IMG/VR virus record: IMGVR_UViG_3300043452_000009
Location: 1 to 52,427 of that record
Direction: 5' to 3' (one strand)
Length of the DNA: 52,427 bases
Source of the DNA: a virus
Below are positions 3,676 through 41,209 of the stretch, piece after piece (positions within the stretch are counted from its first letter, which is position 1; every line of letters starts with the position of its first letter). The position numbers and the translations under genes were made by a program. The notes under the pieces were generated by a model that did no database searches, was not told the origin of the DNA, and saw only the letters and a list, made by a program, of their open reading frames with translations.

Positions 3676-3774
3676 ATGAAAGCTTGTAAAACAAAAATGA
3701 AAATGGCTGATAAGAAGCCAATGGCTAGTAAGTCAATCACTAAAAAAGTAATGATTAAAACAACTAAAAAATAA
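3676..3774 (+). CDS. Short lysine/methionine-rich protein
   Basis: 32 residues (begins MKACKTKMKMADKKPMASKS), strongly basic. It starts after an A/T-rich leader and its stop overlaps the next ATG in a TAATG junction at 3772-3776, which implies translational coupling to the collagen-like fibre. Small Lys-rich proteins of this sort are common between phage fibre genes; I know no function. Confidence 0.45.
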   Translation: MKACKTKMKMADKKPMASKSITKKVMIKTTKK

Positions 3775-6087: not shown

Positions 6088-6090
6088 ACC

Positions 6091-6573: not shown

Positions 6574-6580
6574 TATAATT

Positions 6581-7476: not shown

Positions 7477-7478
7477 AC

Positions 7479-7823: not shown

Positions 7824-8118
7824 CTTACAGTCTAGCAAAATCATAACAGAATTAATTCAGAAGGACTTCTTAAAGCTTGAGGTTAAAACGCTTGTAAAAA
7901 TGGATAGCTTGTCAAGGCAAAGGATTGTAATTCTTAAAAAGTCTAATGAAGAACTATTAAGCGCTTATAACCAGAAAAACTTACAGGTAAACAATCTAAA
8001 TTCGATTATAGAAAATAACGTAAAAACAATAGCGAAGGAAAAGTCAAAAAATAAATTTTTAAAAGTTGTATCTTTGTTGTCTTTAGGAATAACGGGAATT
8101 TTACTAATAACAAGATAG
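7732..8118 (+). CDS. Exported protein, candidate spanin partner
   Basis: 128 residues. The N-terminus is a signal peptide (MKKLRLLTSILFLICSVTSM, then NAQ, typical of Bacteroidota). A long helical, Lys-rich section (about 27-105) follows, and a C-terminal hydrophobic helix (VVSLLSLGITGILLI). The cysteine in FLICS is not in a proper lipobox, so I would not call it a lipoprotein. It starts inside the i-spanin-like gene in a different frame and could work as outer-membrane or unimolecular spanin. Alternative: a tail-associated coiled-coil protein. Confidence 0.65.
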   Translation: MKKLRLLTSILFLICSVTSMNAQKKVVILDSLQSSKIITELIQKDFLKLEVKTLVKMDSLSRQRIVILKKSNEELLSAYNQKNLQVNNLNSIIENNVKTIAKEKSKNKFLKVVSLLSLGITGILLITR

Positions 8119-12379: not shown

Positions 12380-12939
12380 GATCACCATTTTCATTTATTG
12401 TAAAACCTTTAAAAGGAAGGCGATACGATAACATCAAATCCATAGGTGACATAAACTTCATAACAAGCACATCTCAAGAGGACCACATGGCTTCTAATAG
12501 ATTTGCTGAGGTTATTTCCACACCATTAGGATACGATGGAGAGATAAAACCAGGGTATATATTACTTGTTCATCATAACGTGTTCAAGTACTACTACGAC
12601 ATGAGGGGTAGGCAGCAAAGCAGCCACAACCACTTTAAGGACGATATGTTCTTTGTGGAGGACGATCAGTTCTTCATGTTCTTCAACGACAAAGACTGGA
12701 AGTGCTACTCGAAGTACTGCTTCATAGAGCCGGTAGAGCTGAAGGATTACTACTTAGCAAAACCAGGGACAGAGGAACCTTTGTTAGGCAAGATAAGATA
12801 TATAAACGACGAGTTGTTAGATTTAGGATTAAAGGTAGGGGATGAGGTTGCTTTTGAACCAGATAGCGAGTACCCTTTCTATATAAACGACGAGAAGATG
12901 TACAGGATGTTTACTAGCAACATTAAAATTAAGTTATGA
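12376..12939 (+). CDS. GroES-like double-barrel protein, candidate second co-chaperonin
   Basis: 187 residues. The C-terminal ~50 residues (LLGKIRYINDELLDLGLKVG, then DEVAFEPDSEYPFYINDEKMYRM, NIKIKL) read like the last strands of Cpn10: G-xV-kvGDeVxF ... xxIdgexxxxMxxxdIxxxL. The N-terminal half has the same order: FIVKPLKGRR, a long polar loop GDINFITSTSQEDHMASN in the mobile-loop position, then RFAEVISTPLG and IKPGYILLVHHNVF. It could be a tandem Cpn10 fold, like phage co-chaperonins that widen the folding cage for capsid proteins. It sits directly upstream of packaging genes and shows more C-ending codons (TTC, TAC, GAC) than its neighbours. The homology is read by eye. Confidence 0.65.
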   Translation: MRSPFSFIVKPLKGRRYDNIKSIGDINFITSTSQEDHMASNRFAEVISTPLGYDGEIKPGYILLVHHNVFKYYYDMRGRQQSSHNHFKDDMFFVEDDQFFMFFNDKDWKCYSKYCFIEPVELKDYYLAKPGTEEPLLGKIRYINDELLDLGLKVGDEVAFEPDSEYPFYINDEKMYRMFTSNIKIKL

Positions 12940-13676
12940 CGACAAATGAAGAAAATAACTGTATTGTTTATAGACATGTTAGGTTAGATAAAAACGAAGT
13001 GTTTTATATAGGAATTGCAAAACAAAAAAATAGACCTTATGAATCAGGCAAGAGAAGATCTGTTTTTTGGAATAAAATAGTTAAAAAAAGCGAATACGAA
13101 GTAGAAATAATATTTGATAATTTATCTTGGGAAAAAGCTAAAGAAAAGGAAAAGGAATTTATAAAATTATACGGAAGAAAAAATTTAAATAATGGCACTT
13201 TAGTTAATATGACAGATGGAGGTGATGGAAGCTTGAATCCTTGTTTGTCTACAAGGCTAAAGATAGCAGAAAATTCTAGAAAAAAAGTATGGACTAAAGA
13301 ATCAAGAGAAAAATTATCTAAATCTAAATCAGGAGTAAATCATCATATGTATGGTATTAAAGGAGATAAAAACCCTGCGTACGGTAAAAAACACTCTCAA
13401 GAATCTAAAGAAAAAATGTCTAAAGCTAGATTAGGTTTTGTAACAGATAGAGAAGTTGTAAATAGGATAGCAGATAAATTAAGAGGTAGAAAAAGAGATC
13501 CTCATATAGGAATAGCCGTAGCTGAATTTCATTCAAAAATAGTTTTAGATACTCAAAACGGAATATATTATAAAAACGCAAAAGAAGCAGCTGAGTTTTT
13601 AAATATAAAATATAGCACTTTAAAATGTTGGCTAAACGGAAGTAGAAAAAATACTAGTAATTTAATTTATGTATAA
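12936..13676 (+). CDS. GIY-YIG homing endonuclease
   Basis: 246 residues. The N-terminus IVYRHVRLDKNEVFYIGIAK is a GIY-YIG nuclease motif (Y and YIG), followed by a conserved Arg (NRPYESGKRR) and the glutamate region EFIKLYGRKNLNNGTLVNMTDGG. Repeats of the NUMOD3 DNA-binding type occur at about 120-190 (REKLSKSKSG, NPAYGKKHSQESKEKMSKAR). The C-terminus is a NUMOD1/IENR1-like module (YYKNAKEAAEFLNIKYST, LKCWLNGSRK). It overlaps its neighbours by 4 bases (ATGA) and by TAATG, yet is much more AT- and Lys-rich than the gene before it, as expected for a recently acquired mobile nuclease. It likely cuts phage genomes lacking the insertion. Confidence 0.88.
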   Translation: MTTNEENNCIVYRHVRLDKNEVFYIGIAKQKNRPYESGKRRSVFWNKIVKKSEYEVEIIFDNLSWEKAKEKEKEFIKLYGRKNLNNGTLVNMTDGGDGSLNPCLSTRLKIAENSRKKVWTKESREKLSKSKSGVNHHMYGIKGDKNPAYGKKHSQESKEKMSKARLGFVTDREVVNRIADKLRGRKRDPHIGIAVAEFHSKIVLDTQNGIYYKNAKEAAEFLNIKYSTLKCWLNGSRKNTSNLIYV

Positions 13677-23732: not shown

Positions 23733-26700
23733 ATGGCAAATATAGGTATAAATGAAACCGTAACTTTTATCTCTGGTAAAATGAACAAGTCCTTTGACGA
23801 GAGACTTTTACCAGATGGTGAATACATCGACGCTTTAAATATAAGAATAGGATCAACAGAGCTAAGTAGCATAGGAGCTATTGAGAATGCTTTAGGTAAC
23901 ACCAAGTTAACTTTTATCCCTGGACTTACAAGTAATGCAGAATGCATAGGAGCTCTTGAAGACGGTGCCAACGAGACTGTATATTGGTTTATTGCCGATC
24001 CAACTGCTCTTGATATGATTGTATCGTATAACGTTGGAACACAAACACTTAAGTACCATGTTAAGTCTGTTAATGTTTTAAATTTTGATAAAAAATATAG
24101 AATAAACGGAGTTAATTTAATTGACGATTTGTTATTCTGGACGGACAACTTAAATCCTCCTAGAAAAATAAACGTAAAAAGATCATACCCTTTACCAAAT
24201 CCTACTGATCAAATAACAGAGGATGATATAAATGTTATAGTAGCTCCTCCGACTGGGGCTCCTAATATTCAATTGTTTAATGTAGCTGGAGAGGAGAACT
24301 ACATAATAGATAAGTTTTTGTCTTTTTCTTACAGGTACAAGTATTTAGACGGAGAGTACAGTGCTTTATCTAAATTTACAGACATAGCATTCGAACCAGG
24401 TTCGTTTAATATTGACTACTCTACGTACACAAACTCAGGTATGGAAAACCTGTTTAATACAATAAAGGTTTCTTTCGATACTGGAAATGAAAACGTTATA
24501 GGTATCGACTTGTGCTTTAAATACTCTACATCTAACATTGTAAATGTTATAGAGAAGTATAGTAAAAAAGAACAAGGATGGGCTGACAATACTTCTGAAG
24601 AGGTTTTATTTAACAACAAAAAAATATACACCGTTTTACCAGAGAGTGAACTACTAAGACTGTACGATAACGTACCTATAATATCTAAAGCCCAAACAAC
24701 AATGGGTAATAGAGTATTCTACGGAAACTATGTTGACGGTTACGATGTTGACGTAGATTTAGATTACGATGTAAAAGGAATTAGTGAACCTATAAGTGTT
24801 GATAGATTTAATCTAACAGAAACAAATGGATATTCTTATAGTATAGATTCTTCAAACATACTTTCTATAGATAACTCTAAAATAAACATAGACCTGTCTA
24901 ACGCTGAATTAAAAGAAGGTTACACGTTAACCATAGATTTTAATTTAATACACAATCGTTTTAGCGGAAGCTCTTTATACCCTCCTGGAGCTCCTATAAA
25001 TATATTTCAAGAGATATTTTATTACACGTTCCCTAGGGATTATACAAGTGTTTTTGATTTAGGTACTGATCAAGATTTTATAGACGCTCTATATACGCAT
25101 CAACCTATAGCTTTAGCTAATGAAGGATTATCGTTTACTGATTTATTTAATAGATCTTTAATTACAAAACAAATATCATCTGGCGTTCCAGCATGGACTA
25201 AAACAGGTAGTGGTATTAACAACGATAACGGAGGTTTTGAAATAACCGTAAATACAGGTTCTAATATACTAGGTATTCAAGTACCGGCAATGGAGTTTTT
25301 TGTTGAGTCTCCTACAGGTGTAATGAATTACGCTTACGAGTACTTTGAAAACGTTTCAACCGAGGCGTATATAACAAACCCTGGAAGCAAAAAGAGCTTA
25401 CATAGTAATAGAGATTATGAGTTAGCTATCGTTTATATGGATGACTACAGCAGAAGAAGCACTGCTTTAACTGTTACAAATAATACCGTATTTTTTCCAG
25501 CCTCTACATCAGACACTAGGAACTACTTACAGGTGTCTGTAAATAACACAGCTCCATCTTGGGCTAAAAGATACGAGTTTGTATTAAAGCCTTCTAAGAC
25601 AGGTTACGAAACTATTTTTTGCAACATATTTTTTATAGACGAAGATGGTTATACATGGTTTAAATTAGAAGGAGACAATAGAAGTAAGGTAAGAAATGAT
25701 CAAAGGCTTATAGTAAAAAAAGATTCATCTGGTGTTTTAAACAGCTTGGTAATAACTAAGGTTTTAGATATAGAAGCTAAGTCTAGCGGATTTATAAGCG
25801 GAGGAGCTTTAGAGCCGGCTGGAACTTATATGAAATTAAAGGCTTCTAATTTCCAAGCCACTTATCTTGAAAACTCTTACGTATCAAGAGAGATTGTTAG
25901 TTGCGGAGAGGACTATCCTTCGGCTCAAATACCATTTCATCAGAATAATCCACAATACGATAATACATTACCAATAACACCAGGTAACCAGCCTTACATG
26001 CCTATACCTGTTCCAGCTGGGTCTTTAATCACTATAAGAATTAGATTTAATAGAAACAGCTCAGGTAATAGTTGTGGATCAAGAACCTATGACTACGATA
26101 AGAATTTTGTTTCTAATCAGGATTATAATAGTTTTTATGATTTTATACAAGGACAACAAATAAACCTTACTAACGGTGTTAGTTCTGGTGATGACGATAT
26201 AGTTAATCTAAATGTTCAATCATCTGTAATAGCTAACTATGAACCTTTACTTCCTTTTTCATGTTCTACCTCTGGATTTATTAGCCCAACACCTAGTATT
26301 AATAAATATCAATTTGCAGAAGGTTATGTTGGTAATAACCCAGCTAATCCTAAAGATGGGCGTTTATATTTTGGATTAAGAGGAGGTACTCCTTATTGTA
26401 GTGGAAAATCATCTATGTTAAATGGTTACATAGTAATACAGCAAGCAAATTCTTCTTTTATTTTTGAAACAGAACCAGCTGAAGCTGATGGAGAAATATT
26501 TTACGAAAACGATCAAGTTTTTGATATTGTAAACGGGTTCCATCAAGGTAACGTAACAAATCAAACATCTGGCCTTAATTCAGCTGTATCTAATCTAGAC
26601 TTCTTTAACTGCTTCTCATTTGGAAACGGATGCGAAAGTTATAAGATTGGAGATTCATTGGTCGGCGCTCCTTTTTACATAGGTAGTAGGGTTACGGCTG

Positions 26701-28658
26701 TTTCTCAAGAGGACTACAGATCAGCACGCAGGTACGCTTCAGTAACATACAGCGGAATATATAACCAGGACACAAACATAAATAAATTAAACGAATATAA
26801 TTTAGCTTTAGCAAACTACAAAGATTTAGAAAAAGTATTTGGAAGTATAGAGATATTATATGGAAGAAAAACTGACCTTCTTGTTCTTCAGGAGGATAAG
26901 ATTTCTTACGTGTTGCAAGGAAAAAACTTACTGTCTGACGCGGCAGGAGGAGGAGCAATAGCTTCTATACCTGAAGTTCTAGGTACTCAAATATCAAGAA
27001 TTGAAGAAAACGGAATAAGCAATAACCCTGATAGTTTTTCTGTTTATGGACCAGAGATTTTCTTTACAGACGTAAAGAGATCGGCTGTTTTAAACTTAAG
27101 AGGAGGTTCTTATAATTCTGATCAACTTGTTGCTATATCTGACTTAGGTATGAAGCATTGGTTTAGAGATGAATTTAAAAACTCGTTAAACAACTTAAAA
27201 ATTGGAGGCTACGATCCTTACATGAGTGAGTATGTTTTATCTATTAAGGACGATTTACTTCCAGTGCCTATTGATGAGGTTCCTTGCGGTACCTTATTAG
27301 AGAAGTATAGCAGTAGCGAAGAAAGCACTTACTATATAAACTTAGGCAATACAATAGGTCAGGTTACATTTAACATAAGCGTAACGGAAGGAGATTTAGA
27401 TGTTTTAGTTGAATATAACGGTATTGTTATTTTTGACAGAAATATAGACATAAATACAGATATTGTGTTTAACAAGGAAGCGTTTGAACCAGAGTTAGTC
27501 ACCGTAAGTATTGCGCCTAACAACGCTACTTTTACAATGTCTACTCCATGCCCAGAGCTAGAGCCGCTGACCGTGGTTAAGGTTGTGATTAATTCACCGG
27601 CATCTCAAGGGTTGACAACTCATACAAAATACAGATGGTCTCTAGGAGCTGATTTAAGCCCTTATGATATTGAATTTATAACATTAAACTCTTCAGGTGT
27701 TTCTCTTTATGAATTAGTAGATGGATTCACTTCGGCAGGAACAATACCTGCTATAGGTAGTGATATAGAACTAGTGTCTAGTAAACAATCTGGAGATACT
27801 TATAACTTTAGTCCTTCAAATTCATTTAAGTATTTAGTGTCTAATAACCTTTACGATGTGCCTACTTTAATACCTTTGTTAAACAACGTAACGCCTGTAA
27901 CAAACCCTACAACTGGTACATACCAAGCTGTTGTAAACAATTTTGCTTACACCGGATCTTATTTGTACTTAGTTTGGGATTTAAGGATATCAAATAGAAT
28001 CAGTCTTTGCTACAGTGATGTAGACGAATACGACGTTTGTTGCGATTGTTCAGGCGCAAGTGATTACTATATTAATTCTAATTCTTTTTCAGGAGCTACA
28101 GCTGTTTTTACTGATTCTAACTTAACAATACTTGCCACTGATGGTTGGTATCAATTAGGCGGTACATATAGACAGCAATTATCAGGAGTTCTATTAGACC
28201 CTGTATCATGCCCAAGTTGTGAGGCATGTACTACTTGGTCTGGAGGTACTTTTAAAGGTGCTGGAGATTTTGATGCTACGTTTAGTTATTTAGATTGTGA
28301 TAATGCAATACAAAATATTGTGGTCCCAATACCTGCTAATGCAACACCTGGTATACCAATGGCGTACGAAGTAAATCTAGGGGACGGGGTATGTGTTATA
28401 CCAGGTAGTATAGAATTAATTACACCTTCTGTAATTCCGTCTTTAACAATTGAGTATGGCGCTGAATGCTCTGTACCTCCTGTTGATTGCTTAGAGTTTA
28501 CTGCTAGTGCAGATGGATTCCCAGGGACGGTATATTATACAGACTGCGCTGGAGATCGTCAAGAAATTTTTGTAGACACAACACTTACATTCTGTGCTGT
28601 ATTTGGAACAGTAACATCTGGAGGCCCAATAATAAGTATAAACGGAGATTGTATATAA
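23733..28658 (+). CDS. Tail stabilisation / muzzle protein
   Basis: 1641 residues. The N-terminus (FISGKMNKSFDERLLPDGEY, IDALNIRIGSTE, GAIENALGN, LIDDLLFWTDNLNPPRKINV) is the classic start of the stabilisation or muzzle proteins of crAss-like podophages, with beta-propeller-type repeats related to the T7 tail tubular protein B. Later parts are large beta domains. A conserved block around 1060-1170 (SIEILYGRKTDLLVLQEDKI, GPEIFFTDVKRSAVLNLRGG) is near the usual end of the conserved region. The C-terminal ~350 residues are extra and Cys-rich (CCDCSG, CPSCEACTTWSGG), which may be stabilised by metal or disulfides and bind receptors. It forms the tail nozzle. Confidence 0.82.
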   Translation: MANIGINETVTFISGKMNKSFDERLLPDGEYIDALNIRIGSTELSSIGAIENALGNTKLTFIPGLTSNAECIGALEDGANETVYWFIADPTALDMIVSYNVGTQTLKYHVKSVNVLNFDKKYRINGVNLIDDLLFWTDNLNPPRKINVKRSYPLPNPTDQITEDDINVIVAPPTGAPNIQLFNVAGEENYIIDKFLSFSYRYKYLDGEYSALSKFTDIAFEPGSFNIDYSTYTNSGMENLFNTIKVSFDTGNENVIGIDLCFKYSTSNIVNVIEKYSKKEQGWADNTSEEVLFNNKKIYTVLPESELLRLYDNVPIISKAQTTMGNRVFYGNYVDGYDVDVDLDYDVKGISEPISVDRFNLTETNGYSYSIDSSNILSIDNSKINIDLSNAELKEGYTLTIDFNLIHNRFSGSSLYPPGAPINIFQEIFYYTFPRDYTSVFDLGTDQDFIDALYTHQPIALANEGLSFTDLFNRSLITKQISSGVPAWTKTGSGINNDNGGFEITVNTGSNILGIQVPAMEFFVESPTGVMNYAYEYFENVSTEAYITNPGSKKSLHSNRDYELAIVYMDDYSRRSTALTVTNNTVFFPASTSDTRNYLQVSVNNTAPSWAKRYEFVLKPSKTGYETIFCNIFFIDEDGYTWFKLEGDNRSKVRNDQRLIVKKDSSGVLNSLVITKVLDIEAKSSGFISGGALEPAGTYMKLKASNFQATYLENSYVSREIVSCGEDYPSAQIPFHQNNPQYDNTLPITPGNQPYMPIPVPAGSLITIRIRFNRNSSGNSCGSRTYDYDKNFVSNQDYNSFYDFIQGQQINLTNGVSSGDDDIVNLNVQSSVIANYEPLLPFSCSTSGFISPTPSINKYQFAEGYVGNNPANPKDGRLYFGLRGGTPYCSGKSSMLNGYIVIQQANSSFIFETEPAEADGEIFYENDQVFDIVNGFHQGNVTNQTSGLNSAVSNLDFFNCFSFGNGCESYKIGDSLVGAPFYIGSRVTAVSQEDYRSARRYASVTYSGIYNQDTNINKLNEYNLALANYKDLEKVFGSIEILYGRKTDLLVLQEDKISYVLQGKNLLSDAAGGGAIASIPEVLGTQISRIEENGISNNPDSFSVYGPEIFFTDVKRSAVLNLRGGSYNSDQLVAISDLGMKHWFRDEFKNSLNNLKIGGYDPYMSEYVLSIKDDLLPVPIDEVPCGTLLEKYSSSEESTYYINLGNTIGQVTFNISVTEGDLDVLVEYNGIVIFDRNIDINTDIVFNKEAFEPELVTVSIAPNNATFTMSTPCPELEPLTVVKVVINSPASQGLTTHTKYRWSLGADLSPYDIEFITLNSSGVSLYELVDGFTSAGTIPAIGSDIELVSSKQSGDTYNFSPSNSFKYLVSNNLYDVPTLIPLLNNVTPVTNPTTGTYQAVVNNFAYTGSYLYLVWDLRISNRISLCYSDVDEYDVCCDCSGASDYYINSNSFSGATAVFTDSNLTILATDGWYQLGGTYRQQLSGVLLDPVSCPSCEACTTWSGGTFKGAGDFDATFSYLDCDNAIQNIVVPIPANATPGIPMAYEVNLGDGVCVIPGSIELITPSVIPSLTIEYGAECSVPPVDCLEFTASADGFPGTVYYTDCAGDRQEIFVDTTLTFCAVFGTVTSGGPIISINGDCI

Positions 28659-28659
28659 C

Positions 28660-29412
28660 ATGGCAAAAACACTAACATACAGTAATTTTTCACAAGGATG
28701 GACATCCTTTTACTCATTCATCCCTGAGAAAATTTTAGGGATGAATAGCTACCTTTATACGTTTAAAGGAGGTAACCTGTACCAGCACAATACAAGCGCT
28801 AATAGAAATGTTTTTTACGACAATCCTATACCGTACCCTTCTACTATTACGTCTGCATTTAACGATAATACTCTTGATGTAAAGAACTACAAGACGCTTT
28901 GTCTTAACAGTAATTCACCATGGTCAGCTGTTGTGAATACAAACATTACTAGTGGTATTATTGATGAGTCATGGTTTGACAATAAGGAAGGGCTTTTTTA
29001 TTCTTTCATAAGAAGAAATAATAATGACTTAACCATAAACATGAGGTCCGCTCAAGGTTTAGGGTCAGTAACAACAGTAAACTCAACATTACCTGCCGCT
29101 GTTACTCTTGCGTTTAGTTTCTCTTTTGGAAGCATTGTAAGTGTTGGAGATTTAATGTACAAAAACAATGCCGGTAACCCACTTCTTTTAGGTAAGATAA
29201 CTTCGATATCTGGTAATGTAATTACAATAAACACAACAATACCTAATGGTTCAATACCTAGTAATGGTGACTTCTTATTATTTATAAAGAACTCAATTGC
29301 TGAGTCTTACCCACAATTAGGGTACTACATGCAATTTAAATTAACGGTACAAACAACATCTAGAGTAGAGTTATTCTCGGTTCAGTCAGACCTGTTTAAA
29401 AGTTATCCGTAA
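28660..29412 (+). CDS. Tail protein, muzzle C-terminal-like domain
   Basis: 250 residues, one base after the muzzle stop. It begins LTYSNFSQGWTSFYSFIPEK, then SYLYTFKGGNLYQHNTSANR and DVKNYKTLCLNSNSPW, a set of motifs (GWTSFYSF, F-xGGxLYxHN) that in many related phages form the end of the stabilisation protein itself. Here they are in a separate gene. The second half is a small beta domain (VSVGDLMYKNNAGNPLLLGK). It probably completes the tail nozzle or hub. Confidence 0.7.
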   Translation: MAKTLTYSNFSQGWTSFYSFIPEKILGMNSYLYTFKGGNLYQHNTSANRNVFYDNPIPYPSTITSAFNDNTLDVKNYKTLCLNSNSPWSAVVNTNITSGIIDESWFDNKEGLFYSFIRRNNNDLTINMRSAQGLGSVTTVNSTLPAAVTLAFSFSFGSIVSVGDLMYKNNAGNPLLLGKITSISGNVITINTTIPNGSIPSNGDFLLFIKNSIAESYPQLGYYMQFKLTVQTTSRVELFSVQSDLFKSYP

Positions 29413-29828: not shown

Positions 29829-30578
29829 ATGGGAGCAGCAGCATCAGGAGCAGCATCAGGAGCAGCATCAGGAACGGCAGTTATGCCGGGTTGGGGTACA
29901 GCCGTTGGAGGTTTAGCAGGAGGAACAATGGGACTTATAGAAGCTAGTAAACAAGCAGCAGCCGAAAGAGGAGCTCAAAGAGCAGCAGAAGAAGCCGCGG
30001 CAAAAGCAGAGCGTCTTCAAGAAACAAATTTCTTAGGAGCTGTTCAGGTCCCTGTACAAGCATATGAGCAAGGATTAAGAACAACTACAGCAAACCAAAT
30101 GCAAGCATTAACAGCTTTAGCGGAAGCTGGTTCAAGAGAACTAGCTGGAGGTGTAGGTAGAATAAACGAAGTAGGTAACAGCCAAGCAAACGATGTTACA
30201 AATCAATTGGGTGATAGGCTTTATAATTTAGACGTAGCTCAAGCCAATGAAAAAGGACAGACAAATGACGCGCTGTCTAAAATAAGTCTAGATAGAGCTA
30301 AGGGTGCTCAGTTAGCAGCTATGGCCGCTCAGTTAGCCAAAACACAAGCCTTAGACTCTTCTGTTCAAGGATTTGGTTCAGCTCTAGTTGCTGGAGAAAA
30401 CATGCTGACTCCAGTACATAAAGAAGGAGAAGACGCTGTTTCATCTCAAATACCTAAAATGCCAGGGGTTATGATTCCAAACGCACAGGCTCCTCAAATA
30501 GAAAACACTCAACTACAAGGACTTGCTAGTCCAGAGGTACTAAAAATGTTAGAGATTTTTATGAAAAACTATAGATAA
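29829..30578 (+). CDS. Ala-rich internal virion protein candidate
   Basis: 249 residues. The N-terminus is almost pure Gly/Ala/Ser (MGAAASGAASGAASGTAVMP), followed by GWGTAVGGLAGGTMGLIEAS, a hydrophobic Gly-zipper-like segment, then a long coiled coil (QAAAERGAQRAAEEAAAKAE) and Gln-rich helices. Such Ala/Gly-rich helical proteins, encoded right after tail genes in podophages, are usually ejected internal proteins that help form a channel through the cell envelope. The next gene starts at its stop. Role inferred. Confidence 0.6.
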   Translation: MGAAASGAASGAASGTAVMPGWGTAVGGLAGGTMGLIEASKQAAAERGAQRAAEEAAAKAERLQETNFLGAVQVPVQAYEQGLRTTTANQMQALTALAEAGSRELAGGVGRINEVGNSQANDVTNQLGDRLYNLDVAQANEKGQTNDALSKISLDRAKGAQLAAMAAQLAKTQALDSSVQGFGSALVAGENMLTPVHKEGEDAVSSQIPKMPGVMIPNAQAPQIENTQLQGLASPEVLKMLEIFMKNYR

Positions 30579-32095
30579 TGGCAGAGTACTACGGATTTAA
30601 AGATGCTAGTGAAGTAAAGGCTAATCCAGTTGTGGATTGGGGAACTATCGCTATGAAGGTAGGTCAGGATCTTGATAAAAACAAAGAAAACAGACAAAGA
30701 CTTAGAGCAGAAGACCAGAAGATTACTTCTGAGAATTTAGATACTTTAAGTAAAGCTGATTTAGGAGCAGACCAAACTATTAACAAGCAACTTACTGATG
30801 CTGTTTATGAAAATAAAAAGCTTCAAGGCGAGTGGTTTAATCAGTTAAAAAACGGTAAGATGACTAGACAAGATTATGCGTCTAGATCTCAAGCCTTAAA
30901 AAACAACTGGGGTATCCTTAATAATGTTGTTAAAAATAGAGCAGCGAATGACAAAGTTCTTATGGATGCGATACAAAGCAATACAGAAGACGCATTAACT
31001 AGCACTATTGCTAAAAAACTAGGAACTCTTTCAAATTTACAAAATAAAAAACTATATACAGATCCTACAACAGGTGTCATGGTTGTAGCTGATTACGATG
31101 AAAACGGTAAGATTATAGAGTCATCAATGATGGACATAAACTCTATAAACAATGCTCAGGTAGACGCTGCACCAAGGGTTAATGTTGTGGAAGGAGTGAA
31201 GCCAATTGCTGCTACTGCCGCTAAATTAATTACTGATAACGGTATTAGATCTTTAGAAGACGCTATGAGATCACCAGCCTATCCTCAAATGAGAAAAGCT
31301 GCTCAGGACTCTGTTCTTTCTAGCAATAGAAGAATCGCTGATGTATTGGTAAATTCCAGCGGAATGGGGTATTTCATAACAGACGATCCTAGTGAAGCAG
31401 AGAAAAACCCTTTAGCTATATTAGCGACTAGTACCGGAGGTAATTTTGACGTGGTATTAGACCCTGTTAAAGACGCTAAAAAAATAGAGGCAGCAAATAA
31501 CGTTGTTGGGAAAGCGCTTGATCTTCAAATGCCTTTTATAGAAAAGGTTACATTACCTACTCCTAGACAACCTAGAGCAGCGGCTGCTCCAAAAGAAGAC
31601 AAAGATCCACCACCAACAATATCTCAAGTAAACCCTATTAGAGTAGGTAACAAACAAGGAGCTGTAGCTATTATTAACGACCCAGTTGGTATAAAAACAA
31701 ACTCAGGATTTGTAGAGAAGGTTGTAAACGCTGGTATTGATGAAGATGGAAGACATTTTGTTAAGGTTGTTAGATATAATTCTAAAGAAAACCTAGGAGC
31801 AGAAGGAGGTTCTACTAGTTTTTCAGCTAGCCAAACAACCCCTAAAACTTATGTTTACTACGGTGAACAAATAACGCCTCGTTTAAAAGGAGACGAAAAG
31901 AACATAAGAGAATACAGTCCTACTAATTATGCAAACTTTAGAAGTAGAGCTGGATTTGGTTCTGATGAAGAATTAAGAGTTTTTCTTGAAGAACAAAGAG
32001 GGGTAAGATTACCTACGTATAAAGCACCTGCTAAAGCACCTGCTGGTAAACAAGTTCAAGGAAAAACAGGCAAAAAGATATTTATACCAAAATAA
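30578..32095 (+). CDS. Putative internal virion protein
   Basis: 505 residues. The first ~160 are helical (WGTIAMKVGQDLDKNKENRQ, DYASRSQALKNNWGILNNVV), the middle has PRVNVVEGVKPIAATAAKLI, and the end is beta-rich and Lys/Pro-rich (AKAPAGKQVQGKTGKKIFIP). I do not recognise a family. It sits between the Ala-rich gene and the giant virion proteins and shares their style, so a cargo protein is likely. Confidence 0.5.
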   Translation: MAEYYGFKDASEVKANPVVDWGTIAMKVGQDLDKNKENRQRLRAEDQKITSENLDTLSKADLGADQTINKQLTDAVYENKKLQGEWFNQLKNGKMTRQDYASRSQALKNNWGILNNVVKNRAANDKVLMDAIQSNTEDALTSTIAKKLGTLSNLQNKKLYTDPTTGVMVVADYDENGKIIESSMMDINSINNAQVDAAPRVNVVEGVKPIAATAAKLITDNGIRSLEDAMRSPAYPQMRKAAQDSVLSSNRRIADVLVNSSGMGYFITDDPSEAEKNPLAILATSTGGNFDVVLDPVKDAKKIEAANNVVGKALDLQMPFIEKVTLPTPRQPRAAAAPKEDKDPPPTISQVNPIRVGNKQGAVAIINDPVGIKTNSGFVEKVVNAGIDEDGRHFVKVVRYNSKENLGAEGGSTSFSASQTTPKTYVYYGEQITPRLKGDEKNIREYSPTNYANFRSRAGFGSDEELRVFLEEQRGVRLPTYKAPAKAPAGKQVQGKTGKKIFIPK

Positions 32096-32107: not shown

Positions 32108-34903
32108 ATGGAAGAGGAATACATCTTAAACGGTAAAGTATACAAAGCGTCTGACCTTAATTCTTACGCTAAAAAAAGCGGTTTGTCTTTGAGTGAGTAT
32201 ATTAAAGAATCTGGAGCTAAAGTAAGTCAAGCTGCTGAAAAAAACTATTCACTTGGAGGTAAGAATTACGACAGAAAAACACTTGAAACATACGCTAAAA
32301 AAAGCGGTTTATCTTTTGACGAGTACATAAAAGAATCCGGTGCAAAAAATATTGCAGTAAAAAAAAAAGAGTCTACAGATGGTACTCAAGCAAGTCAAGC
32401 TTTGGGTTCGAAACCTGTTCAGCAACCTGTAAAATCTTTATCGGGTACAGAAAAACAGGGACAAGCTCAGCCTTCGGCTTCTTCAAGTGGAGGTAAGATG
32501 GAAACATTTACTGGGTTCTCTAATGAGGACCTAGCTAAAATGAATCAATCTCCAGAGGAGAAATCTAATGTTGAATTTGCTAAGAATTATACTCAGGCTG
32601 TTAAAAAAGGAAGACTAACAAAAGGGAATCCAAATGCTATAAAAACAGAAAGTCCTTTTGAAGAAGCTTACAAGCAGACTGAGGAAGAAATAAAAGCAAA
32701 TCCTTTTTTAACACAACAGCCTCAAATAGGATTAGACGGTAAAGAGATTGTTGAAAAAAAGAGCGTAATTGAAACAATAGGACTGCCTTCTAAGGAAGAT
32801 ATTGCTAAAAAAGATTTAGAGATAAAACAAAAAATAGACCAAGAATATAAAAATCTTGATCTAGATAATCCTACACCGTATTTATCTGCATCAACTTATA
32901 ATAGATTAGAAACAGAAGGGCTTCCAAAAGATACTTTTGTAGATGATTTATTTAGTGATGAAAAACTACAATCAGCAGGTATAAATCCAGCTGATTTTGA
33001 CGGATACCTAAATCAATCTGGTTTTAAAGAACAATTCAAAGAAAGAAAACAGAGAGGTGATTTTGATCCTGAATCTAGAGGTTTAATGAAAGTATCTGAC
33101 GCTAGATTAGCTGAGGAATTGTATAAGAAAAAAATACTATCAAATTACATATCTACTATAAACGAAAGAGAGGTTTTAAAAAGTAAGTTACAATCTGTAA
33201 AAGGTAGTTATGACGGTAAAAAAATACCTGTAAATAAAAACGCTAAAGTATTTGATAATAATTTAATAGCGGCTTACTCTGAAGAAAACCTTCCTATTTT
33301 AACACAAAAATTAAAAGAAAAAGATCAGGTTAATAAAGAAAAATACCAAGAATTAACAAATGATAATTCTGGTTTAAACTCTTTATGGATAGGGACTAAA
33401 AACGCGCTAACCGGAGGTTTTAATTCCTTCTTAGACGCTGTAAATAAATCAGGTACAACTATTTACGATGCTATAGGAGCTGACGAAACAGCTGAAGAGC
33501 TAAGATATCTTAATGAAGAAAGGCAATTAGAAAGACCCTCTGAAAGACAAGTTTCTTTTGCTAGTGGTAAAGTCGTGGGGTTGAAAGGTAAAAAATACTT
33601 AGTAGACGAAAAAGGAACTGTATACGACAAGGATAATGAAATAGTTGTGAACGATCTTTTAGATCAAGGTTCGTTAGATAAAATACTAAAAGAATCCAAA
33701 AACTCAAAAGAAGAAGATTGGTTTTTTAGCCCTCAAGGAACCGCAGTTCAGACAGGTTCTGTTTTAGGAGATATGGTTTGGCAAGTTGCGTGGCAAGCTA
33801 CTGTAGGTAAGCTTACAAAAGGCATACCTATGAAAAACATTCCGATACCAAAAGCTACGGCTGATGCTATTATAGCTCAGTCATCTCTTGGTTATTCTCA
33901 GGCATATCAAACAACTCTTAAGGAAGCTAAAGACGCTGGGTTAACAGACAAGGAAGCAGAGCAAATAGCTGGAGATGCAGCTCAGAGAACTGCAATATGG
34001 TATGGAATAACTGCACCTATATCACCTCAAACTAAAGCTGTAGAATCTTTATTTGGAGCAGCTGAAAAAGATCTTATAAAGAAAGCAGTAAACGCATATA
34101 AAATAAACGGTAAGCAAGGGTTTATATCTACATTAAATAACGGATTTAAGCAAATACCTAAAAAAGCCGTAGGATTTGTTGAAGAAGGAGGAAAAGAAAC
34201 TATTCAAGAAAACATACAACAAGGAGGTGATATTTTATGGATTAACGCTCAAAAAAACATAGACGCAGGTAAGGAAATATCTGACGAGACAATGTCTTAC
34301 GATGATTTCATGAATACTTCTATATTGTCATTCTTGTCAGGAGGCGCTGCTGCTAATTTAAACATGCCTTCTTTTTCTGGAAATAAAAAAACACAAGTAA
34401 AAAGTTTATACCAATTATCTCAAAACATGGACGTGTTAGACACTAACTTGAATGAGATGGTAAATAATAAAGTAATTACTAAAGAAGATGCTGATAGAGT
34501 AAAGAAGGACGCTATAGCTGTTTCTAGAAACGTTACAAGGATACCAAAAGATACAAATCCTGACATTCAGCTTGATGTAATGAGAAATCTTAGCGATGTT
34601 CAAGACTTGGAAGACAGTAAAAAAACATTAGACAAATCATTTCATTCTCAGATTGATGCCCAAATACAAGAAAAAAGAAACGAGGTAGAGAATATTTACA
34701 ACGAGTCTTTAAAAACAAATAAAAAAGAAGAGGTAGAAAATATTCAAGAAAATTCATTACCTTTGTTTGAGCAATTACAAGCTACCGAAACAACAAAACA
34801 AAAGAATAGATTACTTAAAAACAACCCAACGGTAGCGTTTGTTAGTCAAAATTTAGACACAATAATAGACTCTGTAGAAGGAGCACAACGAGTTGAATGT
34901 TAA
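32108..34903 (+). CDS. Large internal virion protein with N-terminal repeats
   Basis: 931 residues. Residues ~1-85 hold two copies of a 40-residue motif, Y-L-GKVYKASDLNSYAKKSGLS then EYIKESGAK, and Y-L-GKNYDRKTLETYAKKSGLS then EYIKESGAK. This FxxYAKKSGLSxxEYIKExG element is common at the N-terminus of phage internal proteins and may target them into the capsid. A long polar linker follows, then a helical block (LWIGTKNALTGGFNSFLDAVN) and, at about 545-760, a conserved membrane-active-looking section with GDMVWQVAWQATVGKLTKG. Its end overlaps the ferritin gene's alternative start. Probably ejected with DNA. Confidence 0.65.
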   Translation: MEEEYILNGKVYKASDLNSYAKKSGLSLSEYIKESGAKVSQAAEKNYSLGGKNYDRKTLETYAKKSGLSFDEYIKESGAKNIAVKKKESTDGTQASQALGSKPVQQPVKSLSGTEKQGQAQPSASSSGGKMETFTGFSNEDLAKMNQSPEEKSNVEFAKNYTQAVKKGRLTKGNPNAIKTESPFEEAYKQTEEEIKANPFLTQQPQIGLDGKEIVEKKSVIETIGLPSKEDIAKKDLEIKQKIDQEYKNLDLDNPTPYLSASTYNRLETEGLPKDTFVDDLFSDEKLQSAGINPADFDGYLNQSGFKEQFKERKQRGDFDPESRGLMKVSDARLAEELYKKKILSNYISTINEREVLKSKLQSVKGSYDGKKIPVNKNAKVFDNNLIAAYSEENLPILTQKLKEKDQVNKEKYQELTNDNSGLNSLWIGTKNALTGGFNSFLDAVNKSGTTIYDAIGADETAEELRYLNEERQLERPSERQVSFASGKVVGLKGKKYLVDEKGTVYDKDNEIVVNDLLDQGSLDKILKESKNSKEEDWFFSPQGTAVQTGSVLGDMVWQVAWQATVGKLTKGIPMKNIPIPKATADAIIAQSSLGYSQAYQTTLKEAKDAGLTDKEAEQIAGDAAQRTAIWYGITAPISPQTKAVESLFGAAEKDLIKKAVNAYKINGKQGFISTLNNGFKQIPKKAVGFVEEGGKETIQENIQQGGDILWINAQKNIDAGKEISDETMSYDDFMNTSILSFLSGGAAANLNMPSFSGNKKTQVKSLYQLSQNMDVLDTNLNEMVNNKVITKEDADRVKKDAIAVSRNVTRIPKDTNPDIQLDVMRNLSDVQDLEDSKKTLDKSFHSQIDAQIQEKRNEVENIYNESLKTNKKEEVENIQENSLPLFEQLQATETTKQKNRLLKNNPTVAFVSQNLDTIIDSVEGAQRVEC

Positions 34904-34913
34904 AAATAAAATT

Positions 34914-35411
34914 ATGTTAAAACCAGAGATTTTAGACAAGGAAGTAGTAGATATATTAACGTCAAGACTTCAGAATGAGTATAACCATCACTACTTTTAC
35001 CAAGCTGCAAGCAACTGGTGTAGAGGTATTGGGTTTAATAAGGCTGCTGATTACTTTTTAGCTGAAAGCAATGAAGAGCTTGAGCACGCAAGAGGTATTG
35101 AGAAGTATCTTATTGACTGGAATGTCACCCCTTCTCTTCCTACAATTAAAACACCTGTATTAGAATTTAAAAATTTAGCTGAAACGGTTGAGGTTTCTTA
35201 TAAGAATGAGTACGAATTGTACGAATTGTATGAGGAATCATCTGTTGATATTTTAAAGATGGGTGAGATGTGTACATTTGACTTCTTGCAAGCATACAGA
35301 AAAAATCAGAACGATGCGGTTGCTGCCTATAGCGATATGCTTAATATCCTTGAAGGGACTAACGCAGACAGCAAGTTTGAGATGTTATTAATAGAAAAGA
35401 AATTATTCTAA
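34914..35411 (+). CDS. Ferritin
   Basis: 165 residues, a clear non-haem ferritin similar to E. coli FtnA. From M1 the ferroxidase ligands read E22 (LQNEYNHH), E55 and H58 (NEELEHAR), E98 (YKNEYELY) and Q131 (KNQNDAV), matching FtnA E17, E50, H53, E94 and Q127. The third-site residue FtnA E130 is replaced by A134 and E126 by N130, so sites A and B are kept but site C is weakened. It should oxidise Fe(II) and store iron in a 24-mer shell. The start MLKPEIL matches FtnA's MLKPEM, so 34914 is preferred over an ATG at 34893. It lies between two giant virion-protein genes, three bases before the next. Confidence 0.92.
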   Translation: MLKPEILDKEVVDILTSRLQNEYNHHYFYQAASNWCRGIGFNKAADYFLAESNEELEHARGIEKYLIDWNVTPSLPTIKTPVLEFKNLAETVEVSYKNEYELYELYEESSVDILKMGEMCTFDFLQAYRKNQNDAVAAYSDMLNILEGTNADSKFEMLLIEKKLF

Positions 35412-35413
35412 TA

Positions 35414-38400
35414 ATGGCTGGTCCTTGTGTTTTATATAATGGTAAGAAATATACCACAGAAGAGTTCGCTGCGTTTATACACGATGGCGAACTTTCTAAT
35501 TTAATATCAAATAATAAATTAGATCCTAAAAAATTAACAGGTGAAGTTCCTGACGTTTTTAATGTTCCGGTTGCAGAGGCTAAAAAGATGAGTGTGATAA
35601 CTCCTGAGAAGTCATCAAACTTTGCTAACCTTACTCAGGACGATGAAGGGAACGCTGTGTTCTTTCACGTTGGTGATGCTGGCTACGAAACAATCAAGCC
35701 GTCAAGCGGTCAAAGCACTAGAACATCTAAGGGTGAGGCTGCTGCTATTGGCAAGGTTGGAGGTGTTGCTATGTACTACACCAGCCCTAATGATTCAGAG
35801 ACGATGGTCACCGGTCCTGGGAAATACGCTGTTAAAGTCCCTATTAGTAAGGTATACGATTTTAATACTGATGAGAATAATTACTTAGAGGAAGCTCAAA
35901 AAAGACACGAAGAAGAAAACCCTGGCAAAGCTATGGACGCTAACTCTGAATTAGCTTATATTACAAAGATAGCCGGAGAGAATGGCTACGACATGGTCGT
36001 TGCTGATTGGGGAGGAAAAACTCGCGCTCAAACAACTAAGGAATTAACGCCAACGGATACTCAAATTTCTAAGGGAGAACAGGTTACAAAAACTTTTGAC
36101 GAGAAGTACGTTCCTAATACTGAAAAAGGATTCGTGTCTATAGTTCCTGAATCTAAGGATTCTAAGTTTCAAAAGATATACGACAAGATATACAAGTACA
36201 GAAATTCTCAGCAAAATTATGATGCGTTGTATAAATTAAGCACGTCTAGTTTAAGCAGAGAAGGAATTACTAAATTGGTAAATGAGTCTGATTTACCTCA
36301 GGAATTGAAAGACGAGTATAACAAGGTAGATAAACAAAGACAAGGCAAGAGAAGATCTTATATTAAAACTAAAGAGGTTAGTGTTGAAGGAGCTCCAGAA
36401 GGAAGCTACCTAAACATAGGGATGAAGATTGGTGAGGACGGAGAGATGCTTACTATCGAAGAAATCAAGGAAGCCTTGCCAGATGATGTTGAAATTTCAG
36501 AGGAGATTGTTAAGGATGTTGAGAGTATTTTTGATGGAGAAATAAGTATAGAGCCTACGAATATTTTAAAAATATCTAGACCACTTACAGATGAAGAGAT
36601 GCAAAACCTTCTTGTTGCAACTGAGCAAATGGGTATATCTCAAATGGTTGATGGTAAAGGAATTGTGCACGGAACAGAGCTATGGGATAAGTTTGACCCT
36701 AAGTTCTTCCATATGCCAGATAACAGAGTGCTTTCTGATGTTGTGTCTAAAGAAAAAACAATAGAGCAGGAGGTTGAGGAGATATCAAACTTATTCTCTA
36801 CCGATATAAACAAGGCTGTTGAGAACGCTAAGGCTGCGTTGGCTAATATACTTCCTAATGTGAAGTTTGTTATTCATGATGATTATGATTCGTATACAAA
36901 GGCTGTAGGTGACGAGGACGTAGAGTCTGGAGGAACTTATATGTCAAGCACAAATACAATACATATAAACAAGCGAGCTGCTACAAAAACAACAGTAGCT
37001 CACGAGGTATTTCATGCCGTACTTATAAATATGGTTGGTACCGATGTTAAGGCGGCTGACATAACAAAGCGAATGATTAATGCGCTTAGTAAGCAGCTTG
37101 ATAATAACCCTGATTTAAAGGAGTATTTAGAGAATTTTGTTGCTTCTTACGACGAGAATATTAAGAATGAAGAGAAGGCAGCTGAACTATTTGGTTATCT
37201 AGCAGCTAACTACGATACATTACCTAAGCAATCACAGAGTCTTATTAAGAGATGGATGGATGCCTTGGCTAAGATGTTTGGCTTTAAACCATTCACAGAT
37301 AACGAGGTTGTAGACTTCTTTAACACGTTGTCAGAAAAGGTAGCTACTGGACAGGAGGTTACTGATTTAGATGTTAAAGCTATAAGCACAGGAACTCCTT
37401 CTGCTATAGGAAGTCCTGTCAGTATAAATAGAAACTCAAAAGGTGCTGCTTTAAAATTTACTGAAACTCCAGCTAACTTATCTTTTGTAACAAACAAAGA
37501 CAAGATAGATATTAATAGTCTTATAAATGAGATTATTGATAAAAAACAAAAAATTTGGTTCTGGATGGCAGACCAATTAGGTAGAGGTAATTATTATGAT
37601 TCAGTAATAGATGGAGAACATTATTTAGATGCTGGTCCTAGTTTTGCTTTAGATCCACAAAACAAAAACAAAGGGGTTTTATGGGCTAGTGGATTAGCTG
37701 AAAAAACATTGAATGATCAAATAGAAAAAGCTGATTATATATTTTTCATAAGCGGATCTCCTGAGAAAGCTAAGTTATTTAATAAGAGAGTATTAGATTT
37801 GACTGCCGCTAGGATAAATAGTAACTCAAGTTTTGATGAGTTTAAAAAAGCAATTAATAATTTCCCTAAAGAGACAAATGATTTAATAACTATAAAAGAA
37901 GCTTTGAATAGTGTTAATTCTTTTGAGGAGTTGTCTAACAGCACAAAAAGAAAACCTTTTTTAATAGCTATAGATAAGTTAAGCAAATCAAAAACAAGCC
38001 CAGAAGGATCTTTAAACAGTTTGCTAAAATCATTTAATGCCTTTGTTGACTACAACGAATTAAGAGATGGTTTTTATAAGGAAAATAATTTTTCTCAAAA
38101 CGACATTATGCTTGTTGGTAAACCAACTGGTCTTGGAGGAAAAGCTATTCACTCTACTTACGAGTCCGCTATTTTAGGAGAAGTGATAGGTGTTCCTGAT
38201 AAAAAAATTGATTCTTGGGAAATAATGCCTAAAGAATTAAAAGACAAATACAAGAAAGTAATTGAAGGTAGAGAGTCAAAAACAAAGCCATTACAAGCAA
38301 AAATAATAGCGGCAGAAATTGGTATTGTAAGAGAATTAGATTCTTCTGCAAAAAAACAAACTAGTGTTATTGCTAATAAAATAAAGACAGCAAAATCTAA

Positions 38401-41209
38401 CGGATTCTCTGATGCTGCTATTTCACAGTACCTACAAAATAACGGGTACACAGCTGAGCAGGCCTCTAAAGGATTGCTTGATTACAATAAAAAAGAAATA
38501 CAGAAAGCGCAGAAAGAAGACGGTATATTTGTAAAAGATACCAACACTAAAATAAAAAATTTCTTAGGAAGCGTTAGAAGAAGATTAACTTCAGCTAGAG
38601 GATTTATGCCTAAGTCTACATTTTTAGCTATTGAAGACAAAGCTTCAAAAATAGAAGTCCAAGCAAAGTTAGTATCTAATACATCGAAAAGATTTGATAA
38701 ATTACTTTCTAAATATCAAGGAGATAAGGAAGCTTTATTGGTTGAATTTGATTCGTATATAAGAGGGGATAAATCAGTGATTTTGCCTTCAGAATTTAAA
38801 GCCGTTGGTGATATAATGAGAAACCAGATAGACGGTTTATCCCAAATGCTTGTAGATCTTGGAGCCTTGCCAGCTGAGTCAGCCGAAAATATTAGACAAA
38901 ACATAGGGTCTTATATGACTAGAGCTTATGAAGTTTTTGATAATAAAAACTGGGCTACAAAAGTTAAACAAGAGCAAGTAGATAAAGCTAAAGACTTCTT
39001 TAGAAATGAATTTTCTAAAATAGCTGAAGATAAGGCCCAAAAAGAAGGCCTTACTAAGGAGGACGTTCTTAATAAAATAGTCGACGAACAAATAAGTAAA
39101 ATACTTGATAAGGATATTGAGAATGGTTTTGTAAGCTCTGGAAAGGAAGGCTCTAAGGATTTATCTATACTAAAACAAAAGATGGATATACCATTAGAGA
39201 TAAGAGCTTTAATGGGAGAGTATACAGACCCTGTACAAAACTATGCCAACACTGTTTACAAGATGGCTAACCTTGTTTATAATACCAAGTTTTTAAATGA
39301 CCTTAAAAAGAATGGTATGGGAACTATATTTTTTGAGGAGAATGATACAAATAGACCTAAAGATTTTAACACAAAAATTGCTGCTGACTCAACAAAAACA
39401 TTTGATCCTCTTGGAGGTTTATTTACAACTAAAGAAATAGCTGATGAGTTTAATAATGCATCTCCTTTAAATTCTTTATCTAAGGCCGCTAACGCTTTCA
39501 AACTTTATGAGTACTACATGAAGGCACTTAGATCTGTAAAATGGTTAAAGACTATTGGTTCTGTTGCTACTCACGGTAAGAATGTTTTTGGTAACCTTGA
39601 CTTTATGTTGTCTAATGGATACATTAACTTTAACGAATACAGAAAATCGTTTAACGTTATAATGAACGACCTTAGAAATAAAGGAAATAAAGATCTACAA
39701 GAAAAATTACTTGAATATACTGATGCTGGTATAATAAATCAAAACGTTGGATTAAATGAAATTAAGTCAATGTTTAAGGATGGTGATTTTGATAAGACAT
39801 TTGAAAGAAGAATGAATAAGCCAGGTGAGAGTAAAATCTCTAGGCTTGGTAGGTATTTAAAATCTAAAACAATAGGTGTCAAGGAAGGTCTTGAAAACGC
39901 TTACCAGGCTGAAGATGATTTCTTTAAAATTGTAGCTTATGAAACAGAGAAAAGAAAATACTCAGAAGCTTTTTATGGTAAGAAATACGAAAACCTTACA
40001 GACACGGAGAAGAAAGATGTTGTTGATTATGTTAAGGAAATAGTTAAAAACATACTTCCTAATTACTCAAGGATTCCTAACTCAGCTAAAATGCTTAAGG
40101 TAATACCTGTAGCTGGTACGTTTATATCGTTCTCTTTAGAGTCACTTAGAACATCATACAACACTGTAGCTCTTGCATTTACTGAGATGAAATCAGATAA
40201 TCCTAAAATAAAAGCAATAGGAGCTAAAAGATTCGTAGCTTTAACCGCTATTCAAAGTTTAAAATATGGACTGATGTACATGTTGTCTTCTAGCTTTTTA
40301 GGAGATGATGAAGAAGACGAAGATAATAAAAACAAGAATGCTAAAAGATTTGTGGCTCCATGGTCTAAAAACTCTAATATAGTTATAACAGACATGGGAG
40401 AAGGTAAGTTTTCTTTTGTTGATTTTAGCGCTTCTGATCCTAGAGCTCAAGTGCCAAAAGCTTTGAATGCGTTTAGCTCTGGAGAAAATTTTATTGACGG
40501 ACTTGTAGAGTCTGTAAAAGAATTTACATCTCCTTATTTAAGCCAAGATATTTTATTTTCTTTAGTTAACGAAATTAAAGACAATAAAGATTCTTTTGGA
40601 AGGGAAATATACAATGAGTACGACAAGCCAGTGGATAAGGTTAATAAAATAATGGCTAGGGTTTGGAAGACTTTTGAACCAGGGACTTTGACTAGTATAA
40701 GAAAAATATCTGAATCAGAAAACAAAATAAATGATGCTGTTGGACAAATAACTGGATATAAGGTTATAGATGTTGACACTCAAAAGCAGTATTATTTTAA
40801 TTCTAAGAAGAACTTCGAAGAAACATTAAAGGCTAAGCAGATATACAACAAGGCATTTAGAAAGTTTGAAAAGAAGGAGATTACAAAAGAAGAGTTAAAA
40901 GAAGCTTACGATAGATCTAATGAAAGTATCAGAGGTATATTAGAAGAGAATAAAAAAGATTTTGATTCTGCTGTATACTTTGGAGCTGATCCTTTAGTTC
41001 TTTCTCAGTCCGCCGATGATGCTGGTTACAGTAAGAACGCTGTATATCAAATTGAATCTGGAGAGTTTCAAGATATCGAAGATAAAACTCCTTTAACTCA
41101 AGAAGAGGCTATGAAGAAAATAGAAGAGTTAAGAGAGAATATAAAGTCTAGAGGAATAAAAAATCTAGACGAGATAAGAAGAAAAGCAAGAGAAAAAGGA
41201 GGCAATTAG
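35414..41209 (+). CDS. Giant internal virion protein with zincin domain
   Basis: 1931 residues, the largest gene. The N-terminus (VLYNGKKYTTEEFAAFI) resembles the element repeated in the 32108 protein. Residues ~65-230 contain FFHVGDAGYETIKPSSG and YAVKVPISKVYDFNTD, perhaps an ADP-ribosyltransferase-like fold. A zincin motif VAHEVFHAV (H530, E531, H534) with a downstream AAELFGY glutamate marks a metalloprotease at ~470-600. A conserved module at ~690-970 (IWFWMADQLGRGNYY, DAGPSFALDP, IFFISGSPEKAKLFN) is typical of phage polyvalent proteins. The last ~500 residues are the helical large-polyvalent-protein type with VKWLKTIGSVATHGKN, DFSASDPRAQVPKAL. Most likely injected with the genome. The stop overlaps the convergent gene. 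Confidence 0.8.
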   Translation: MAGPCVLYNGKKYTTEEFAAFIHDGELSNLISNNKLDPKKLTGEVPDVFNVPVAEAKKMSVITPEKSSNFANLTQDDEGNAVFFHVGDAGYETIKPSSGQSTRTSKGEAAAIGKVGGVAMYYTSPNDSETMVTGPGKYAVKVPISKVYDFNTDENNYLEEAQKRHEEENPGKAMDANSELAYITKIAGENGYDMVVADWGGKTRAQTTKELTPTDTQISKGEQVTKTFDEKYVPNTEKGFVSIVPESKDSKFQKIYDKIYKYRNSQQNYDALYKLSTSSLSREGITKLVNESDLPQELKDEYNKVDKQRQGKRRSYIKTKEVSVEGAPEGSYLNIGMKIGEDGEMLTIEEIKEALPDDVEISEEIVKDVESIFDGEISIEPTNILKISRPLTDEEMQNLLVATEQMGISQMVDGKGIVHGTELWDKFDPKFFHMPDNRVLSDVVSKEKTIEQEVEEISNLFSTDINKAVENAKAALANILPNVKFVIHDDYDSYTKAVGDEDVESGGTYMSSTNTIHINKRAATKTTVAHEVFHAVLINMVGTDVKAADITKRMINALSKQLDNNPDLKEYLENFVASYDENIKNEEKAAELFGYLAANYDTLPKQSQSLIKRWMDALAKMFGFKPFTDNEVVDFFNTLSEKVATGQEVTDLDVKAISTGTPSAIGSPVSINRNSKGAALKFTETPANLSFVTNKDKIDINSLINEIIDKKQKIWFWMADQLGRGNYYDSVIDGEHYLDAGPSFALDPQNKNKGVLWASGLAEKTLNDQIEKADYIFFISGSPEKAKLFNKRVLDLTAARINSNSSFDEFKKAINNFPKETNDLITIKEALNSVNSFEELSNSTKRKPFLIAIDKLSKSKTSPEGSLNSLLKSFNAFVDYNELRDGFYKENNFSQNDIMLVGKPTGLGGKAIHSTYESAILGEVIGVPDKKIDSWEIMPKELKDKYKKVIEGRESKTKPLQAKIIAAEIGIVRELDSSAKKQTSVIANKIKTAKSNGFSDAAISQYLQNNGYTAEQASKGLLDYNKKEIQKAQKEDGIFVKDTNTKIKNFLGSVRRRLTSARGFMPKSTFLAIEDKASKIEVQAKLVSNTSKRFDKLLSKYQGDKEALLVEFDSYIRGDKSVILPSEFKAVGDIMRNQIDGLSQMLVDLGALPAESAENIRQNIGSYMTRAYEVFDNKNWATKVKQEQVDKAKDFFRNEFSKIAEDKAQKEGLTKEDVLNKIVDEQISKILDKDIENGFVSSGKEGSKDLSILKQKMDIPLEIRALMGEYTDPVQNYANTVYKMANLVYNTKFLNDLKKNGMGTIFFEENDTNRPKDFNTKIAADSTKTFDPLGGLFTTKEIADEFNNASPLNSLSKAANAFKLYEYYMKALRSVKWLKTIGSVATHGKNVFGNLDFMLSNGYINFNEYRKSFNVIMNDLRNKGNKDLQEKLLEYTDAGIINQNVGLNEIKSMFKDGDFDKTFERRMNKPGESKISRLGRYLKSKTIGVKEGLENAYQAEDDFFKIVAYETEKRKYSEAFYGKKYENLTDTEKKDVVDYVKEIVKNILPNYSRIPNSAKMLKVIPVAGTFISFSLESLRTSYNTVALAFTEMKSDNPKIKAIGAKRFVALTAIQSLKYGLMYMLSSSFLGDDEEDEDNKNKNAKRFVAPWSKNSNIVITDMGEGKFSFVDFSASDPRAQVPKALNAFSSGENFIDGLVESVKEFTSPYLSQDILFSLVNEIKDNKDSFGREIYNEYDKPVDKVNKIMARVWKTFEPGTLTSIRKISESENKINDAVGQITGYKVIDVDTQKQYYFNSKKNFEETLKAKQIYNKAFRKFEKKEITKEELKEAYDRSNESIRGILEENKKDFDSAVYFGADPLVLSQSADDAGYSKNAVYQIESGEFQDIEDKTPLTQEEAMKKIEELRENIKSRGIKNLDEIRRKAREKGGN

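Follow-up and report, generated by a model that had tools for sequence, protein, structure and literature searches.

Why should a phage carry a ferritin gene in the midst of the genes for its giant, probably internal virion proteins, and what would such a ferritin do? The question arises from a linear virus record of 52.4 kb (52,427 nt), analysed here over its whole length and referred to as the window. The TerL protein of the window is 72% identical to that of MW202828.1 (podovirus, Manatee Spring) and 45% identical to those of the Flavobacterium elemo phages. PHROG family matches were obtained for TerL, the portal and a putative capsid protein, and a 250-aa tail protein matched the crassvirus muzzle C-terminal domain. 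Judged by these matches, the virus is a crAss-like/Pachyviridae-related podovirus of Bacteroidota.

The main genes between 13.7 and 41.2 kb of the window all lie on one strand, and around the ferritin gene their order, given by protein length in aa, is 1641 (tail protein), 250, 131, 249, 505, 931, ferritin and 1931. The annotated features of the window are as follows.

970-2577: phage-encoded GroEL, 535 aa (NCBIfam E 1e-152)
3774-5258: tail-fibre gene (collagen-like and fibre segment matches)
23733..28658, plus strand: tail/muzzle-type protein, 1641 aa, homologue of phi18:3 gp114 (virion, MS/MS), 1e-129
28660..29412, plus strand: tail protein, 250 aa, homologue of phi18:3 gp115 (virion, MS/MS), 6e-40; PF25729 crAss_MUZ_C
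29829..30578, plus strand: probable inner virion protein, 249 aa, Gly/Ala-rich; phrog_13764 virion structural protein, 5.5e-5
30578..32095, plus strand: probable cargo protein, 505 aa, at the same place as phi18:3 gp121 (virion, MS/MS)
32108..34903, plus strand: putative virion cargo protein, 931 aa, with weak similarity to the N-terminal portions of relatives' giant cargo ORFs
34914..35411, plus strand: non-heme ferritin, intact ORF, 165 aa
35414..41209, plus strand: cargo protein, 1931 aa, several domains, homologue of phi18:3 gp123 (virion, MS/MS), 2e-50; phrog_22602

Cellulophaga phage phi18:3 has a similar gene order (gp114, gp115, gp116, gp120, gp121, gp122, gp123), and the structural annotation of its gp114, 115, 120, 121 and 123 comes from MS/MS proteomics of virions. 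The 505-aa protein resembles gp121 only weakly in sequence, and its assignment rests on position and synteny; homologues of the 249-aa protein are found at the same place in relatives, and phrog_22602 is a family of virion structural protein. A preliminary description of the locus had put the ferritin gene between two giant ORFs in a late virion-cargo context. The flanking ORFs, at 931 and 1931 aa, bear out the first point, and the second is supported by the homology of the downstream one to a phi18:3 virion protein found by MS/MS. The ferritin gene also adjoins the second giant ORF, as described, at a gap of 2 bases (TAA-TA-ATG) instead of the three reported. The upstream gap is 10 bases, leaving no room for a non-coding promoter 5' of the gene. 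Homology thus gives good support to the placement of the ferritin in a late, co-directional virion-cargo operon, and the gene is presumably expressed late.

The 165-aa protein matched the Pfam Ferritin model PF00210 with an E-value of 9.5e-18 and 64.9 bits (curated cut-off 24.5), and its sequence matches to solved bacterial ferritins went down to 8.5e-14. An AlphaFold2 monomer model, built with viral relatives only, had a mean pLDDT of 89.3 and a pTM of 0.84. The predicted helices (residues 9-39, 42-68, 88-115, 119-147 and 154-164) make up a four-helix bundle and a C-terminal helix E, and the model superposed on the E. coli FtnA, Vibrio, Campylobacter and human H ferritins with TM ~0.9 and Z ~23, over 158-164 residues at 1.2-1.7 Å.

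When 12 sequences were aligned, among them E. coli FtnA and eight further bacterial ferritins, the columns without variation were E22, Y29, E54, E55, H58, Y65, E99 and Q132 (numbering of the window ferritin). The diiron ligands E22, E55, H58, E99 and Q132, together with Y29, are all among them, so the intra-subunit diiron ferroxidase centre of the window ferritin is complete. The preliminary description had listed E22, E55, H58, E98 and Q131 as being in register with FtnA; the alignment upheld the first three and moved the last two by one residue, to E99 and Q132. Its claim that the third-site glutamates are replaced was right at three of four positions, where FtnA E126, E129 and E130 become N131, D134 and A135, but not at FtnA E49, which is retained as E54, so that the full third-site set of FtnA (E49/E126/E129/E130) is absent from the window ferritin. 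In a second alignment, the other viral ferritins kept an EQxEEE-type motif, from which the window ferritin differs.

The FtnA equivalog model NF007638 gave the window ferritin 53 bits, below its cut-off of 178, and the bacterioferritin model TIGR00754 gave no match. Identity as a bacterioferritin was rejected because the helix-D diiron Glu/His of Bfr (E127/H130) are absent, Q132 and A135 standing at those places. Identity as a Dps protein (no helix E, dimer-interface site, 12-mer) was also rejected, since helix E is predicted and the intra-subunit site is complete. The protein shares with E. coli FtnA the five-helix fold (1.4 Å rmsd, 158-159 residues) and has E17/E50/H53/E94 and Q127 of FtnA in register, but it is only ~25% identical and departs from FtnA at the three third-site positions. 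With human/animal H-chain ferritin it has in common the fold (Z 23, 164 residues), a diiron site that lacks a complete third site, and Q and A at the positions of Q141 and A144, although identity is ~20% and the window's is a phage gene. We infer that the 165-aa protein is a classical cage-forming, H-type non-heme ferritin, which would assemble as a 24-mer and have ferroxidase activity.

The preliminary description had called for a survey of the gene's position in related phages, and such a survey found the position conserved within the genus but not outside it. Two further viral contigs carry the ferritin gene at 95-98% identity, and the gene was present at the same site in all contigs that cross the site (3/3), with neighbours mostly 58-91% identical. 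In MW202828.1, the elemo phages and three further relatives (L025, L026, L028), one ORF of ~3100-3860 aa replaces the 931/ferritin/1931 segment. A search of the two whole records MW202828.1 and elemoA up to E = 10 found no ferritin domain, inside the giant ORF or elsewhere. With the gene present in all contigs of the genus that cross the site, and usually a single giant ORF there in the more distant relatives, the ferritin is the mark of an event at the level of the genus, sited where a giant cargo gene is split in two.

The ferritin gene is functional and under strong purifying selection, as seen from dN/dS values of 0.024, 0.052 and 0.103 in three pairwise comparisons, in which dS was unsaturated (0.26-0.47). 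In both pairs that include the window, the ferritin had the lowest dN/dS of five genes; in the third pair the 250-aa tail gene, at 0.081, lay slightly below it. Two stretches were invariant in the three genomes, 34859-34975 (117 nt, ferritin start) and 35403-35487 (85 nt, end junction). Both include third codon positions, although in the rest of these genes synonymous sites diverge by ~22-50%. The invariant stretches could reflect a promoter, a constraint on translation start or a recombination join; a conserved RNA structure at the ferritin start (34859-34975) gave no signal (z +1.3). Because the 117 nt run across the start, the 3' end of the 931-aa gene may contain a promoter, in which case the ferritin could be expressed at a different time from the genes around it.

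As to where the gene came from, the comparison with host Bacteroidota ferritins that had been proposed returned only distant sequences, the closest in 395 Bacteroidota genomes being ~18-30% identical; the cellular ferritins aligned for the ligand comparison were only 21-25% identical, and a pattern scan across 84,980 genomes turned up nothing closely related. A recent host origin was rejected on these results. In the tree, the window clade paired with the ferritin of another phage contig, L069, with support of 96/95 but long branches on both sides; a single clade of all true phage ferritins had an AU p of 0.26, a value that neither excludes nor establishes it. The L069 ferritin, 34% identical to that of the window over the best segment, lies on a 104.7-kb crAss-like contig with a crAss-type TerL (1.6e-102). 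It is on the strand of TerL and upstream of it, in a late-strand block, among nuclease and glycosyltransferase genes.

12772-13275 and 6090-8321: ferritin and interrupted TerL match of the ferritin contig L069 / L092 (G401)

The TerL match of this contig crosses several stop codons, possibly because of an intron or another interruption. A further family of phage ferritins was found in viral genomes or contigs of 22-198 kb (L079-L089, L095), where the gene stands alone on the strand opposite to the surrounding genes; in those examined (L079-L084, L086) its direction is opposite to that of a nucleotidyltransferase-like gene and further conserved genes next to it. Databases hold phage ferritins as well (BFVD A0A6J5MFB8 and A0A8D9C9X5; Thermus phage phiLo), and several other phage ferritins matched phrog_16594. 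Prophage-edge contigs (L070-L078) and unannotated 'phage' records with ferritin matches were treated as probable host sequence.

Phage ferritins as such are therefore already known, from databases and from the literature (PMC6802176). The window ferritin, phage-encoded like these (PMC6802176, BFVD, phiLo, L069, L079-L095), differs from them in that those aligned keep the third-site glutamates and in that the neighbourhoods differ (L069, L079-L095). What is new is that it has a constant position within the virion-cargo operon of a crAss/pachyvirus-like phage genus and a reduced third site; the literature, searched for ferritin in viral contigs and in crAss-like phages, gave nothing specific to this case. 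The Dps and Mn-catalase genes of Gratiaviridae and Flandersviridae (PMC8008677) are likewise ferritin-superfamily anti-Fenton genes in Bacteroidota phages, but Dps, a 12-mer without helix E, belongs to a different family. Phage ferritin had previously been noted only as one among many auxiliary genes, and its fixation in a cargo operon offers a precise, testable case of iron and Fenton control within a lytic programme.

Computation establishes the fold, the intact diiron ligands, the operon position and the purifying selection on the gene. The role that we consider somewhat better than an even bet (about 0.55) is that of a ferroxidase and iron buffer that is made late, works in the cytoplasm and keeps Fenton damage down while virions are produced. 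The ferritin would be transcribed along with the late virion-cargo genes and would act in the host cytoplasm while virions are assembled. Its intra-subunit diiron site would oxidise Fe2+ with O2 or H2O2 and the iron would be kept as a ferric mineral, lowering the free iron that comes from dismantled host proteins, so that Fenton damage to replicating or packaged DNA and to the host machinery would be limited until lysis. Having lost all but one of the four third-site carboxylates of FtnA, the window ferritin would be expected to turn over more like eukaryotic H ferritin, with 2 Fe per O2 instead of the 3-4 of FtnA. Both the cytoplasmic location and the protective role are what the proposal adds. 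Ferritins of freshwater phages have been interpreted as a defence against ROS (PMC6802176), as have the Dps and Mn-catalase of gut Bacteroidetes phages (PMC8008677); among the subset of ORFs searched in the window, no other ROS gene was recognised.

The same biochemistry would also serve if the ferritin banked iron for iron-dependent phage or host enzymes and protection from ROS were not its main role, and the ferritins of NCLDV have been read as controlling how much iron is available while virions are made (PMC7136201). Sequence hardly distinguishes storage from protection, yet a late-operon position comes at a poor time for nucleotide synthesis and the genes examined included no recognised iron-dependent phage enzyme, which makes iron supply rather unlikely as the main role. 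Re-use of the fold for another diiron or structural role, such as Dps-like DNA binding or a part of the capsid or tail, would fit the altered third site, the carboxylates of which are conserved in the other aligned ferritins; we regard it as very improbable, because the ferroxidase centre is complete, helix E is retained and 159-164 residues of the model align structurally with storage ferritins. Hardly credible is a recently captured host gene that hitchhikes in the operon without a selected function. Such a gene would be missing from relatives outside the genus, as is the ferritin, but the dN/dS of 0.02-0.10 largely refutes it, the low identity to cellular ferritins (21-25% in the alignment, at best ~30% in the 395 Bacteroidota genomes) argues that the capture was not recent, and the nearest relative in the tree belongs to another crAss-like phage.

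The operon position also raises the question of whether the ferritin is itself packaged as virion cargo, where it would protect the genome from Fenton chemistry inside the capsid or carry iron, the latter being a protein form of the Ferrojan-Horse idea. The gene does lie between two cargo-type genes, and the homologue of the downstream one is proven in virions; operon position, however, predicts co-expression only, and gp122, whose small gene takes the corresponding position in phi18:3, carries no MS/MS note. A ferritin 24-mer is ~120 Å across. The cargo zones of crAss001 are large, with a capacity of ~5.5 MDa, but its tail passages are constricted to < 50 Å, and cargo is thought to unfold (PMC10172136). 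With the cage so much wider than the tail barrel, and by analogy with crAss001, it seems physically implausible that an assembled cage could leave through a crAss-type tail; one filled with iron would at most travel inside the capsid and would not pass through the tail. A packaged role for the ferritin is accordingly unlikely, and it is slightly less probable still that the ferritin is packaged with the flanking giant cargo proteins and carried by particles, with or without iron. If it were, particles would use it to protect their own genome or to alter the iron status of the host infected next, and the window ferritin is a natural target for asking if phage particles carry protein-bound iron.

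The cargo ORFs were also searched for a virion RNA polymerase; the only DxDxD match, DVDVD in the 1641-aa tail protein, was taken as chance. Near residue 540 the 1931-aa protein has a zinc peptidase-like segment of the HExxH type, and its C-terminal half is conserved. Residues 685-977 of this protein (37466-38344) are replaced in L003, with 51-56% nucleotide identity against ~77-93% in the flanks, and this domain is a swappable module. Conserved blocks of the giant protein (35414-41209) are permuted in order among relatives (L024, L005); in L024 and elemo the peptidase-like block comes first and the N-terminal one after it. Relatives of the window's GroEL, 59-65% identical, were found on contigs in metagenome-assembled genomes, which are perhaps phage contigs.
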